Shown here in pieces: positions 13,140 to 17,901 of a DNA stretch of 41,728 nucleotides. Origin of the DNA: Archaeoglobaceae archaeon (GTDB lineage Archaea; Halobacteriota; Archaeoglobi; Archaeoglobales; Archaeoglobaceae); the NCBI GenBank assembly GCA_026986375.1, contig JALSOQ010000014.1, positions 1 through 41,728 on the forward strand. The letters are read 5' to 3'. The stretch's first letter is position 1; each line of letters begins with the position of its first letter. The position numbers and the translations under genes were made by a program. The notes beneath the pieces are model-generated. The model did no database searches. It saw only the letters and a program-made list of their open reading frames with translations, and was not told the origin of the DNA.

Positions 13140-13445
13140 TCACCTCCAGTAGGGTGCGAACATCAAAAATATAACCATCAGCATCAATATTATCGTCAGG
13201 AGTAGGGCATAGACAGCAAATCTAGACTCTCCGAAGACTATGGGAATTGGCCCTATCAAAACGACACCGCCCGCCTTCACCTCGGTCTTCTTTTTCCTCC
13301 TTTCGCGTTCATTGTGCTCCTCTTCGAGGAAATCTTCGAATTCTGGTTCTTTGAAAATATCCTCCTCATAAGATTCGGTCAAGCCCCTTAAAACCAAGAA
13401 TACTCCGAAGACTATCAGAGCTATCGCGATTATTTCGAGCAACAT
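13140..13445 (-). CDS. DUF131 (TIGR00304-type) small membrane protein, copy 2
   Basis: A 101-residue protein with a hydrophobic helix at the N-terminus ([20 protein letters not shown]), a central charged, acidic then basic stretch, the signature [14 protein letters not shown] at about residues 59-72, and a C-terminal hydrophobic helix. This is the archaeal DUF131 pattern, whose function is unknown. The start is ATG at 13445 with GAGGTG 5 bases upstream. Compared with the adjacent copy 1 it carries an extra charged insert between the first helix and the signature. The pair plus the PK-like gene look like one transcript. Confidence 0.8.
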
Positions 13446-13446
13446 G

Positions 13447-13668
13447 TTACCACCTCAGAAACATCAGCATCATCAGAATCATGAAAACCGCCAAAAAAAT
13501 CCCGAAGACCGCCATATCCAACGACGAGCCGAAGACTATCGGGAACGGCCCTATTATTACCACGCCTCCGTATTGAACGTTCGCGGAATGCATTGCCGAA
13601 GAGATCATCAGCAGGGCTAAGCCCATGAATATGAGAGTGATTCCCATGAACACCTTTTCTACTCGCAT
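13447..13668 (-). CDS. DUF131 (TIGR00304-type) small membrane protein, copy 1
   Basis: About 73 residues from ATG 13668: an N-terminal membrane helix, the signature GGVVIIGPFPIVFG, and a C-terminal helix rich in Met and Leu. It is a tandem paralogue of copy 2, one base away. The frame is open to a TTG at 13755, but that extension is an Asn/Tyr-rich reading of an AT-rich promoter-like stretch, and a TATA-like TTTAAG lies about 26 bases before ATG 13668, so the short start is preferred. Another in-frame ATG at 13647 follows AAGGTG closely. Function unknown. Confidence 0.7.
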   Translation of the reverse strand: MRVEKVFMGITLIFMGLALLMISSAMHSANVQYGGVVIIGPFPIVFGSSLDMAVFGIFLAVFMILMMLMFLRW

Positions 13669-13764
13669 GAAAATCTTTTGAATAATTCTGAACTTAAAGC
13701 TTCGGCCGTAGTATGTGCGATTGTAATTATTATAATTATTATTGAAATTATACAATAATCATGG

Positions 13765-13802: not shown

Positions 13803-14051
13803 ATGGAAAGTAGTAGAAGGTCACGGCACGAGATAATAGTAGCTATCTTGGAAATAGTCGTTGAGGAGGCCAACATTACGAAAATAGTATACAAAGCGAA
13901 CATAAATTTTAAAATGGCAAGAAATTATATAAATTATTTAATAGAAAAGGAGTTCGTTGAAGTTTTGTCCGTAAACGGAAGGAACGTCTATAAGATAACA
14001 GAGAAAGGTAAATCCATACTCGAGCAATTAAGAGAATTTGCGATGTTGTAA
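13803..14051 (+). CDS. Small winged helix-turn-helix transcriptional regulator
   Basis: An 82-residue, single-domain winged helix. Residues 8-30 (RHEIIVAILEIVVEEANITKIVY) form helix 1, NFKMARNYINYLIEKEFVEV is the recognition-helix region, and the wing is VNGRNVYKITEKGKSIL. This is the archaeal HTH_45-type fold seen in many small DNA-binding regulators. The gene is AT-rich compared with its neighbours, which fits a recently moved or plasmid/virus-type regulator, though AT-rich Lys/Asn/Ile codons alone could explain this. It stands immediately upstream of the DUF1102/signal peptidase cluster and divergent from the DUF131 pair, so it could control either. A probable operator lies in its own promoter. 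Confidence 0.85.
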   Translation: MESSRRSRHEIIVAILEIVVEEANITKIVYKANINFKMARNYINYLIEKEFVEVLSVNGRNVYKITEKGKSILEQLREFAML

Positions 14052-14193: not shown

Positions 14194-14772
14194 TTGAAAA
14201 TGGGAATATTGGGAGCACTGGTGGCGTTGAGCCTTTTAATTGGGGTTGGAGCCACCTTTAGCGACTACAACGCAAGCAGAAGCGTGCATTGGAAGATAAC
14301 GACGGACGATGCGGAATTGATCGATCTAACGCCGATTCAGCCATACGCATACATATCCGAAAACGGAGAGCTCGTATTGGACTTCTCCCCGAGCAATCCC
14401 AACTATCCGGGATACGGAGACGGAATAAGTCCATCGAGCGAGTACAACTTCGACGAAGTGTTCAAGGTTAGCAACGACCTATGGGAGAATGTGACCATAG
14501 TGGTTAGAATAACCTCGAGCTCAGCGAACGTCGAGTTCTACAGCAGGGATGGAGGAGTCTACTCGGTGGATGACGGAACTCTTGCAACTTCGAGCGATAC
14601 TGCGAAGAAAGATGTCTGCTTCGTGCTGACTCCGGGTAGCGAGAAGAAAATTGGCGTAGACCTTAGTGCGGACGGAGACAGCCCGGGAGACATCTGGAAC
14701 GTGAAGATGACCATAAAGGCCTACAGGCTGGGAACACAGCCTGCTGAGCTCGACGTTTGTTTGCCGAGGTGA
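14194..14772 (+). CDS. DUF1102 family exported protein A (probable TasA-like surface subunit)
   Basis: This is about 192 residues from TTG 14194. A GAGAGGTG ribosome site ends six bases before this TTG; the GTG at 14185 lies inside that site and an ATG follows at 14200. An N-terminal signal sequence (GILGALVALSLLIGVGATF) is followed by DYNASRSVHWKITTDDAELI and PNYPGYGDGISP, the pattern of archaeal DUF1102 proteins. The rest is a beta-rich secreted domain with few cysteines. It is paralogous to the next gene, with shared blocks TTDDAE, SPNNPNYPGYGDG-like and VSN-LWEN. With a dedicated signal peptidase downstream, it is best read as an extracellular fibre or surface subunit in the style of TasA/camelysin; that role is inference. 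Confidence 0.82.
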   Translation: MKMGILGALVALSLLIGVGATFSDYNASRSVHWKITTDDAELIDLTPIQPYAYISENGELVLDFSPSNPNYPGYGDGISPSSEYNFDEVFKVSNDLWENVTIVVRITSSSANVEFYSRDGGVYSVDDGTLATSSDTAKKDVCFVLTPGSEKKIGVDLSADGDSPGDIWNVKMTIKAYRLGTQPAELDVCLPR

Positions 14773-14777
14773 TGTAA

Positions 14778-15329
14778 ATGAAAAAGATAGTAGGAGTTAT
14801 GTTGCTAATAGTCGGACTGGCGTTGACGATTGGTGCGGGTGCAAATTTCAGATATTACGATGCGGATAGAAGCGTCAAGATAAACATAACGACGGACGAT
14901 GCGGAATTCATAGACCTTAAACCGCTCCAACCCTACGCGTATATGAGTAACGGCAAACTTCTGATAGAAATCAGCCCGAACAACCCTAACTATCCCGGTT
15001 ACGGAGATGGAATGAGCCACAACACTACATACGTATTTGAGGAGATGTTCGAGGTTAGTAACGAGCTGTGGGAGAACAATCAGACTAACTTCCCAATATG
15101 CGTGCAGATATCGGTTCCTCAGAATAGTGGGGTTAAGGTATTTGCCGGAGAATACCTCAACAACGGAACCGCAACGATAGCGAATCCGGGTACACAGATA
15201 CAGTTCACCGTAGAGCACGGAAATCCTGTTAAGGTCGGATTCATATTCGACAACACTTGCCAAGATATAGGAATGCATCAGATAAACATAGATATACAGG
15301 CTTGGAGGGGTGCCTGCTCGATTGAGTAG
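14778..15329 (+). CDS. DUF1102 family exported protein B (probable TasA-like surface subunit)
   Basis: A 183-residue paralogue of protein A. The signal sequence is MKKIVGVMLLIVGLALTIG, then YYDADRSVKINITTDDAEF, PNNPNYPGYGDGMS and VSNELWENN. It has three cysteines in the mature part (PICVQI, DNTCQDIG, RGACSIE) that could form a disulfide, whereas protein A has two, in VCFVL and DVCLPR. The start is ATG at 14778, six bases after the protein A stop; the ribosome site GAGGTGATG overlaps the end of that gene. Two similar subunits with different lengths and cysteines suggest a major and a minor subunit of the same assembly. Confidence 0.85.
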   Translation: MKKIVGVMLLIVGLALTIGAGANFRYYDADRSVKINITTDDAEFIDLKPLQPYAYMSNGKLLIEISPNNPNYPGYGDGMSHNTTYVFEEMFEVSNELWENNQTNFPICVQISVPQNSGVKVFAGEYLNNGTATIANPGTQIQFTVEHGNPVKVGFIFDNTCQDIGMHQINIDIQAWRGACSIE

Positions 15330-15362
15330 GCCCTCCAATATTAATTTTATGAGGGATAATCG

Positions 15363-16346
15363 ATGAAAGACGTTTTGACCTTTCTTTTTCTGGGTTTCGT
15401 AGTAATATCCGTGGCTGGATTCGTTTTAGATAGGCCCTTGTTTATGTCTTACGTCCTATCCGACAGCATGAGTCCCACCTTGAACAAGGGCGATATTTTC
15501 TTCATAAATCCCCTCTCCAAGGGAGATGTAGGGGATATAATCGTCTTCAAGATGAACGGGCACTGGACGGTCCACAGGATATACGCTAAAACCGAAGACG
15601 GATACATAACAAAGGGTGATAACAACATAGCAACCGATCAGCAGAGCGGAAACGTTAGGCCCGTGAAGTATGAGGATATAGCCGGCGTCGTTTTGACTAT
15701 AAACGGAAAGCCGTTGAAGATACCCGGCGTTGGAAATTACATAGGAGCTAACCCGTATCTGGCAATTTTACTGATCATAATCGGTTCGATTCTAATGACT
15801 AAGGATAAGAAGAAGAGAAGAAAGGGCAGATTCATCAGGGTGAGATACAAGACGCTGTATGCGGTTGTGGCGTCATTCACGATAGCGGTAGTTCTGTTCT
15901 CCATCGTGGCAAGTTGGTATGTGGTTGGTTTTGGCTACATCTCCACACTCGCTGGAGGTCAGAGGGAGGGGTGGTATCTGCCGAATTCGGAGTTCAGCAG
16001 AAACCTAACCGTAAAGAATAGAGCGTTACTTCCGGCGGTAGTGACTCTTAAGCCAGTTGGAGATAGGATAAGCTTGGACAGACACATTCTAATTCTAATG
16101 GGGAGGGAAAAAGGTAGCGTCGATGTTCACGTTAACGTTCCGGGAGACACGAGGATGTATTACGAGAAGGTGTTGGTCAGATCGTATCCCCTCCTTCTTC
16201 CATCCAACCTGATAGTTCGCATGAGCGAAATTAGCCCTTACTTACCCCTTATGGCCTTCGGCGGTGAATTGGGCATAATTCTTCTCATACTCTACCACTT
16301 TACCGGAGATGATGAGGTGTTGAGAATTAGGAGGAGGTTCGTATGA
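15363..16346 (+). CDS. SipW-like signal peptidase I with long C-terminal extension
   Basis: A signal peptidase of the S26B (archaeal/ER, SipW) type that cleaves signal sequences at the outer face of the membrane. An N-terminal membrane helix (about 5-21) leads to the catalytic Ser35 in SDSMSPT, His71 in TVHRI (in place of the bacterial Lys) and Asp86 in TKGDNN. Ordinary archaeal enzymes are 130-200 residues; this one has 327. After the catalytic domain come two helices (about 131-146 and 166-187), an exported beta-rich domain (about 190-288) and a final helix (about 290-312). The extra domain may receive or assemble the DUF1102 substrates encoded next to it. It overlaps the next gene as ATGA. 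Confidence 0.9.
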   Translation: MKDVLTFLFLGFVVISVAGFVLDRPLFMSYVLSDSMSPTLNKGDIFFINPLSKGDVGDIIVFKMNGHWTVHRIYAKTEDGYITKGDNNIATDQQSGNVRPVKYEDIAGVVLTINGKPLKIPGVGNYIGANPYLAILLIIIGSILMTKDKKKRRKGRFIRVRYKTLYAVVASFTIAVVLFSIVASWYVVGFGYISTLAGGQREGWYLPNSEFSRNLTVKNRALLPAVVTLKPVGDRISLDRHILILMGREKGSVDVHVNVPGDTRMYYEKVLVRSYPLLLPSNLIVRMSEISPYLPLMAFGGELGIILLILYHFTGDDEVLRIRRRFV

Positions 16347-16771
16347 AACAACTCGTTGCATTACTGTTGTTGGGAATGGTCTTCGGAACCGCAACATATT
16401 ACTCAGCGGAAAGGGCGGTGAAAGTTGCGGTTGTGAATTACGATGAGGGATACATATCCATAAGGTGTTGCGATCACATCCACGTCCGCAAGAATTCGAG
16501 CTTCAAAGCCTTCGAAGTTGGAAACGGAATTACGGATGTGGTTGAGGTTACGGTAAAAAGTTCGGATCCTTCGTTCGATTTGAGCGGAGATTTTTATGTC
16601 CAACCGGGTTGCTGGCACGACGTAACGGGATGGGTTGGAAACATCCCCAACGGAACCTACATTGTTCCCGTCGTCGTGGAAGCCCGGTGGAGCGATGGCA
16701 GTGCCAAGATAACCAAATCCCTCATCGTAGTTGTAGGAGGGTGTTGTAATGAAAGAAATTGTAGGAGATAA
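16343..16771 (+). CDS. Small exported protein related to the DUF1102 subunits
   Basis: A 142-residue protein with a signal sequence (KQLVALLLLGMVFGTATYYS) and a mature part that starts with SAERAVKVAVVNYDEGYI. This opening matches those of the two DUF1102 proteins (NASRSVHW..., DADRSVKIN...), which indicates common ancestry by eye. It has two Cys pairs or singles (RCCDHIHV, QPGCWHDV, VGGCCNERNC), more than the other two, so disulfides or metal binding are possible. It starts within the signal peptidase stop (ATGA) and overlaps the DUF5305 gene by 23 bases. It is probably a minor or tip subunit; this is inference. Confidence 0.78.
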   Translation: MKQLVALLLLGMVFGTATYYSAERAVKVAVVNYDEGYISIRCCDHIHVRKNSSFKAFEVGNGITDVVEVTVKSSDPSFDLSGDFYVQPGCWHDVTGWVGNIPNGTYIVPVVVEARWSDGSAKITKSLIVVVGGCCNERNCRR

Positions 16772-17660
16772 GCGAGTTTTTGGATTTCTGCTGGCGTGTG
16801 TAGTAGTTTTCGGAGCTCTAACCGCAGTAGCATGGAACATGCCGACTGAGAAGACGACGAGCAAGATACTTGGATACAACATCGAGAGGGGTAAGCTGAG
16901 CCACTGGGCCTTAATGGAAAACAACAGCCTATACGGTGAAAACGCAACTATGAAAATGTATCCCTCAAAGCTCGTAAAGGCTTTCGTGCTCGAATACGAT
17001 TACAGAACAAATGGAAACGAATCTCTGGGATACACCTTCGCGGGATACGTAAAATACGAAACTACGGTCGGCAATAAGAAATACACGCTGTGGGAGGAAA
17101 GATTATTCGAAAGATCCGGAAACTTAAGCAACGGAAGCTTTTCGGAACGTTTCGTCCTCGATGTGGGGAATTTGAACGAAAGAAGATCGAAGATAATTTC
17201 CGAATTGGGAGTTAGAAGGATAGATGCCAAAACGTTCTTCGTTGCGAAGGTGGGCGGATTCGAGCATAGGATAGATTTGGTAAACAGTCCCGTTGGGGTT
17301 ATATTCTTCAACAACGTAGAAAAAGTCGTAAGAAAGCCGATATATTCTGAGAGCGTGGAGCCGAACAGACTTGCCGGAGTAGATGTGGCCGTTGCGAGAA
17401 TTCTGTTTGCGATACCTTTGGCGATAACCCTTCCGATGTCCGTGTATTCGGCAAAGCTGAACAAGCCCAAGAGGAAAAAGCAGTTTATAGAATGCAGACG
17501 TATAGCTTCGGATTTAGTCATATTGAACGACAAGAACGATCTTAAGAAGATTTCGGAGCACTTGGACAGGCCGATCATCAAGCGTGCGGAAGATGGCGTT
17601 GAGGAATATGTAGTTTTGGACGACAAGACCAAGTTCGTTTACAGGGGGGAGTGGCGGTAG
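16749..17660 (+). CDS. DUF5305-type membrane protein
   Basis: A 303-residue protein: short cytoplasmic start, membrane helix at about 10-29, a large external domain (30-210) with several possible glycosylation sites (NNS, NAT, NLS, NGS), a second helix at about 213-235, and a basic cytoplasmic tail of 68 residues. The external domain has the pattern of the archaeal DUF5305 family, found beside signal peptidases of this type. The start is ATG at 16749 behind GTAGGAGGG. It closes the surface cluster; an anchor or assembly role is inferred from context. Its last codons overlap the 3' end of the RNase P RNA gene on the other strand. Confidence 0.78.
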   Translation: MKEIVGDKRVFGFLLACVVVFGALTAVAWNMPTEKTTSKILGYNIERGKLSHWALMENNSLYGENATMKMYPSKLVKAFVLEYDYRTNGNESLGYTFAGYVKYETTVGNKKYTLWEERLFERSGNLSNGSFSERFVLDVGNLNERRSKIISELGVRRIDAKTFFVAKVGGFEHRIDLVNSPVGVIFFNNVEKVVRKPIYSESVEPNRLAGVDVAVARILFAIPLAITLPMSVYSAKLNKPKRKKQFIECRRIASDLVILNDKNDLKKISEHLDRPIIKRAEDGVEEYVVLDDKTKFVYRGEWR

Positions 17661-17901
17661 TAAGCCCCCTTCTGTTTTCAGGCGGCATCGGTCTAAGCGG
17701 CCGGACGGCCTTGCACCGGCGGGGTCGGCACGTTTCATCCCGCTTGGGTGACCTCATCCTTTCGGAATCATCGCGTTTCCCCAAGCGGGTGTCGTTTCTG
17801 TGCCGTTGCCACCCCTCTCGGGGCACCCCCTTGCGGGGGTCCGCCTTTTGACGGTGGGGGGACTTTCCTCCTCACGGGAAGCCGCCCACCGCCGCTCCCC
17901 C
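17645..17901 (-). ncRNA. rnpB: RNase P RNA
   Basis: The catalytic RNA of RNase P, which trims tRNA 5' ends. Reading the minus strand, the conserved GAGGAAAGTCC box is at 17860-17870 near the 5' end, and the 3' box ACAGAAGGGGGCTTACTA is at 17658-17675. The ends GGGGGAGCGGCGG (17889-17901) and CCGCCACTCCCCC (17645-17657) pair over 12 of 13 positions as helix P1, which fixes the limits. Several GC-rich hairpins lie between (e.g. ACCCCCGCAAGGGGGT). At about 257 nt it is compact, as in Archaeoglobus and Methanococcus types. The strong GC bias against an AT-richer background is typical of structured RNA in a hyperthermophile. Exact termini are not certain to the base. Confidence 0.95.

Follow-up and report, generated by a model that had tools for sequence, protein, structure and literature searches.

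A conserved Archaeoglobi gene cassette of DUF1102 proteins, a dedicated long signal peptidase and a DUF5305 protein as a candidate fimbria locus

We describe a conserved gene unit of Archaeoglobi in which exported DUF1102 proteins are encoded together with a dedicated signal peptidase of their own and a DUF5305 membrane protein. Given that peptidase and DUF5305 genes also occur beside Taf genes and beside camelysin/TasA genes, the view that this unit is a fibre- or fimbria-making cassette is well supported. Overall, we consider it probable that the product of the cassette is a thin proteinaceous surface fibre, formed by cleavage-primed strand insertion. A sequence-only reading had already claimed a fibre-making cluster here, and co-occurrence, gene order and the likeness to Taf and TasA layouts all agree with this idea of a dedicated cassette.

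The window, i.e., the whole stretch of DNA analysed, comprises 41,728 nt of the forward strand of contig JALSOQ010000014.1 from a heat-loving Archaeoglobaceae archaeon (assembly GCA_026986375.1); among the loci compared, the named ones closest to it come from Archaeoglobaceae MAGs. Positions 14194 to 17660 hold five co-directional, tightly spaced genes, namely two DUF1102 genes (g1 and g2), a long SipW-type peptidase (g3), the exported protein g4 and DUF5305 (g5), of which the pairs g3/g4 and g4/g5 overlap. The open reading frames, their order and their coordinates are as the sequence-only reading had given them. The features discussed below are as follows.

13803 to 14051, + strand: winged-helix gene, HTH_45/Sso10a family (HTH_45, 1.3e-24; Sso10a_fam, 7.8e-23)
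14194 to 14772, + strand: g1, exported DUF1102 subunit, first-position orthologue (PF06510, 3.2e-55)
14254 to 14316, + strand: mature N-terminal strand of g1, TFSDYNASRSVHWKITTDDAE, candidate donor strand, conserved
14778 to 15329, + strand: g2, exported DUF1102 subunit, second-position orthologue (PF06510, 7.7e-63)
14844 to 14906, + strand: mature N-terminal strand of g2, NFRYYDADRSVKINITTDDAE, candidate donor strand (strand E9-17 of the model)
15363 to 16346, + strand: g3, long SipW/archaeal-type signal peptidase with C-terminal extension (TIGR02228, 4.8e-20)
15924 to 16202, + strand: extracellular Ig-like (NEW3-type) domain of g3, between membrane helices (hhalign, PF10633)
16343 to 16771, + strand: g4, third exported protein, a single Ig-like domain plus the shared N-terminal strand (hhalign)
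16394 to 16447, + strand: N-terminal strand of g4, TYYSAERAVKVAVVNYDE (Arg24 invariant; hhalign)
16749 to 17660, + strand: g5, DUF5305 membrane protein, candidate anchor (PF17231 via homologs)

The winged-helix gene lies beyond the five genes named earlier and is a frequent sixth member of the cassette: 20 of the 27 loci have an adjoining homolog. Its product is likely the regulator of the cassette. Two further neighbours were observed on the opposite strand. An archaeal RNase P RNA gene (RF00373, 183.5 bits; 17649 to 17897) is convergent with the cluster and extends over the final 12 bases of g5, while a tandem pair of small TIGR00304/DUF131-family membrane proteins (13140 to 13755) is divergent from it.

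Within the class Archaeoglobi, 25 of the 59 genomes encode DUF1102, and precisely these 25 also encode the full-length long peptidase (Fisher p ~3e-17 over the 59 class genomes, a value that ignores their relatedness); this pattern of presence and absence spans 12 genera. Every one of the 27 complete loci groups two to four DUF1102 genes with the peptidase, g4 and DUF5305, and in five loci (L049, L051-L053, L056) DUF5305 is adjacent but divergently transcribed. The sequence-only reading had proposed a genome survey for exactly this association, and it was borne out for DUF1102 and the long peptidase in every positive genome (25/25) and for DUF5305 in every complete locus (27/27). In one genome (G026), the long peptidase is split across two overlapping frames (L042:6706-7723), through either a frameshift or an error in sequencing, and a second locus of this genome (L043) is intact. 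A search for relatives in viral contigs found none.

Both g1 and g2 match the DUF1102 model far above its curated cut-off (186.7 and 211.3 bits, respectively, versus 22.2). In a tree whose deep support is weak, first-position DUF1102 genes form one clade (28/28) and second-position genes likewise cluster across genera, suggesting that g1 and g2 probably stem from an ancient duplication whose order has been preserved. The mature subunits start with F-x-x-Y-x-A-x-R-S-V...DD immediately past an A-x-A cleavage site, which is SipW-like and has Phe at P2' in 33/37 cases. According to PMC10269814, B. subtilis SipW tolerates an aromatic P2' residue in TasA. The N-terminal pattern that had been proposed as common to the three exported proteins is real: [YF]x[AGS]xR occurs near the start of 81/96 subunit-type open reading frames versus 47/1262 other open reading frames of the same loci. 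Sister lineages have a third DUF1102 copy that the window does not have. The third copies in L033-L037 and L058 are devoid of the N-terminal strand, as might be expected of a terminal subunit that receives a strand but donates none. A fourth DUF1102 gene (L041:6959-8527, L043:9695-11263), of a type not found in the window, codes for 522 residues, among them a long C-terminal part, and its product may be a tip adhesin.

An AlphaFold2 model of g2, built from six sequences, is all-beta (pLDDT 75, pTM 0.75). Its best PDB match is FimA, a chaperone-usher, donor-strand pilin (Foldseek E 5.8e-4, probability 0.99, TM 0.36, rmsd 8). Since the TM and rmsd values make this a weak match, we treat the fold topology of g2 as a candidate. 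Sequence searches of the PDB with DUF1102, g4 and DUF5305 yielded no meaningful match.

The third exported protein, g4, has no Pfam match in a profile search, and its Arg24 is invariant among 25 homologs. Its mature part aligns with that of DUF1102 at 95% in hhalign with the N-terminal strand and at 73-77% without it, suggesting that g4 is probably a reduced relative of DUF1102; the alignment of g4 to NEW3 (PF10633) control domains reaches 78%. Most relatives of g4 have two domains, the second being DUF11-like (DUF11 match in 12 of 25 homologs), and the window and the nearest genera have the first domain only.

The family profile (TIGR02228 sigpep_I_arch, 4.8e-20, 72 bits against a cut-off of 51.85; SipW model, 1.6e-7) and the Ser/His/Asp set both identify g3 as an S26B SipW/archaeal signal peptidase. 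No variation is seen across 25 homologs in the catalytic residues that had been assigned from the letters (Ser35, His71 and Asp86). The extra residues noted outside the catalytic part are also present, but amount to ~180 rather than ~140. They comprise two or three more membrane helices and one beta-sandwich. Given the low confidence of the full g3 model (pLDDT 48), the structure was read from the extension region alone, where residues 211-260 (pLDDT ~67-77) form beta strands between membrane helices.

On its own, g5 falls below the PF17231 cut-off (E 0.014, 15.2 bits versus 29), whereas all 21 of its homologs match (21/21, best 4.5e-24). Inspection of the protein shows two hydrophobic segments, and its layout is that of an extracellular domain and a cytoplasmic tail. 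These segments and the presence of DUF5305 in both DUF1102 loci and TasA loci make a role of g5 as the anchor plausible. Camelysin/TasA clusters of A. fulgidus, its relatives and others contain a small HTH-type gene, subunits, peptidases and DUF5305. The one in A. fulgidus (L145, 1482000-1494000), with four main subunits, peptidases of 151 and 290 aa and DUF5305, is a second fibre locus of that genome, separate from its DUF1102 locus. A further locus (L151:3122-9535, G050) has DUF5305 beside an unusual 374-aa peptidase with a C-terminal catalytic part, as well as small exported proteins and two HTH-like genes, and is a possible third type of cassette.

In haloarchaea, DUF1102 or Taf genes, a long peptidase and DUF5305 form a recurring module. 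Beyond the class, 19 genomes of haloarchaeal type match the peptidase over nearly its full length; all 19 have DUF5305, which in 18 of them lies no more than 2 kb from the peptidase. Three loci with TafA above its curated cut-off carry the long peptidase, which TafC, TafE and TafF adjoin in these loci where tested; the fimbrial function of Taf proteins is taken from their NCBIfam names. The TafA model matches 16/40 DUF1102 proteins (best 6.5e-6), far under its 190-bit cut-off, with g2 itself at 15.1 bits, and NCBIfam profiles for TafC and TafF have no match among the window proteins. Given that DUF1102, Taf and camelysin loci are alike in layout, one cassette plan appears to serve several subunit families.

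From these observations we propose the following scheme. The proteins g1, g2 and g4 would cross the membrane by Sec, and g3 would cut past A-x-A to expose a mature N terminus of the form (N/T/D)-F-x-x-Y-x-A-x-R. The freed N-terminal strand would then slot into the next subunit's beta-sandwich, making cleavage the priming step of polymerisation; such donor-strand exchange fits both the conserved strand and the strand-less third paralogs. In this scheme, the two main subunits would be g1 and g2, neither able to replace the other, and g4 would have a minor place as starter, adapter or tip. The Ig-like domain of g3 and the DUF5305 protein may hold the base of the growing fibre at the membrane, with the winged-helix protein presumably controlling expression of the cassette.

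The role of the g3 extension is open to another reading. In hhalign comparisons, the extension reaches 97% with the extensions of peptidases from haloarchaeal Taf and DUF1102 loci and 92% with archaeal NEW3 (PF10633) domains, against 0.4% with the second peptidases of TasA-type clusters, in which an Ig-like domain is unrecognisable. The idea that it mimics a subunit was considered and rejected: it scores 69% with g4 and 55% with DUF1102, but the NEW3 control scores higher than either, so we call the extension Ig-like and nothing beyond, being no closer to the subunits than to generic Ig-like domains. This generic character is also why we word its use as a docking or assembly platform as a plausible hypothesis. 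It could instead be a mere membrane-topology or stability module with no part in assembly, which would proceed spontaneously once the subunits are cleaved. The closeness to NEW3 and the second peptidases of TasA clusters, which do without a recognisable Ig-like domain, favour such a module, to which we give slightly less than an even chance. It accounts less readily for the retention of the extension in every DUF1102 locus, with homologous counterparts in haloarchaeal DUF1102 and Taf loci, and for its invariant residues W204, P207, F211, P224, P260 and T263.

The nature of the fibre itself can also be read differently. The subunits had been taken from the letters to be of TasA type, and here the results lend no support: the DUF1102 core aligns with camelysins at 5.6% (hhalign), and TasA is absent among the best 50 Foldseek PDB matches of the g2 model, which FimA leads. 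The camelysin profile PF12389 (M73) has no match in the window's own genome and matches 2/40 DUF1102 proteins, marginally (0.088), and a direct sequence link between DUF1102 and TasA is rejected. For the fibre to belong to the TasA/camelysin family proper, as a homologue of TasA and of the archaeal bundling pilin, its subunits would need to have diverged beyond recognition. A locus layout like that of camelysin clusters with peptidases and DUF5305, the aromatic P2' residue as in TasA and the two marginal M73 matches speak for such a fibre; we nevertheless consider it unlikely in view of the alignment and fold results and of the two families occupying separate loci of the same genome, as in A. 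fulgidus. The exported proteins might, on the other hand, not polymerise at all and be secreted or surface matrix proteins, e.g., S-layer accessories matured by a dedicated peptidase. The evidence is all genomic, and Ig-like folds are common in archaeal surface proteins (NEW3 in 94/120 genomes of the phylum), which would suit such a role. The conservation of the N-terminal strand together with a SipW site, the position-specific paralogs in fixed order and the same type of peptidase in Taf fimbria loci make this quite improbable, and a fibre built by cleavage-primed strand insertion is the explanation that we prefer.

A fibre of this kind would provide a testable function for two families of unknown function, DUF1102 and DUF5305, and the shared core of peptidase and DUF5305 links Archaeoglobales, haloarchaeal Taf loci and TasA-like loci. 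The most interesting part of the finding is the platform idea for g3, which opens to experiment the question of whether archaeal donor-strand fibres are assembled at the signal peptidase itself. A bolder and rather unlikely extension would be a single interchangeable archaeal fibre chassis, consisting of a peptidase with an Ig-like docking domain and DUF5305, that takes unrelated DUF1102, Taf or camelysin subunits and couples cleavage and strand insertion on one membrane protein, free of chaperone and usher.

Among known systems, the chaperone-usher pilin FimA is the closest to the g2 model in the PDB, although the match is weak and the window is from an archaeon whose cluster is without chaperone or usher genes. 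TasA/TapA/SipW of B. subtilis and the archaeal bundling pili (AbpA) share with the cassette a dedicated SipW-type peptidase, an aromatic P2' residue and exported beta-rich subunits, but differ in subunit family (no detectable PF12389 homology) and in PDB fold match. The TasA-like clusters of Archaeoglobales likewise share the peptidase, DUF5305 and a small HTH-type gene, whereas the recognisable Ig-like domain is found in g3 and not in their peptidases. The Sulfolobus thread (Saci_0406) is also an archaeal filament processed by signal peptidase I and held by donor strands (PMC9715654), the last being our proposal for the window cassette; it differs in having a single major, isopeptide-linked, glycosylated subunit, and a PDB sequence search gave no sequence link between it and the window subunits. 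Haloarchaeal Taf loci have a long S26 peptidase with the homologous Ig-like extension, small exported subunits with an N terminus of the same type as g1, g2 and g4, an HTH gene within the locus and, in one of three Taf loci examined (L075), an adjacent DUF5305; their gene order and regulator are unlike those of the Archaeoglobales cassette, and the window subunits match Taf models weakly. The cassette is thus most likely a form that SipW-dependent fimbria loci of archaea take in Archaeoglobales, with its kin among haloarchaea rather than in the TasA family.
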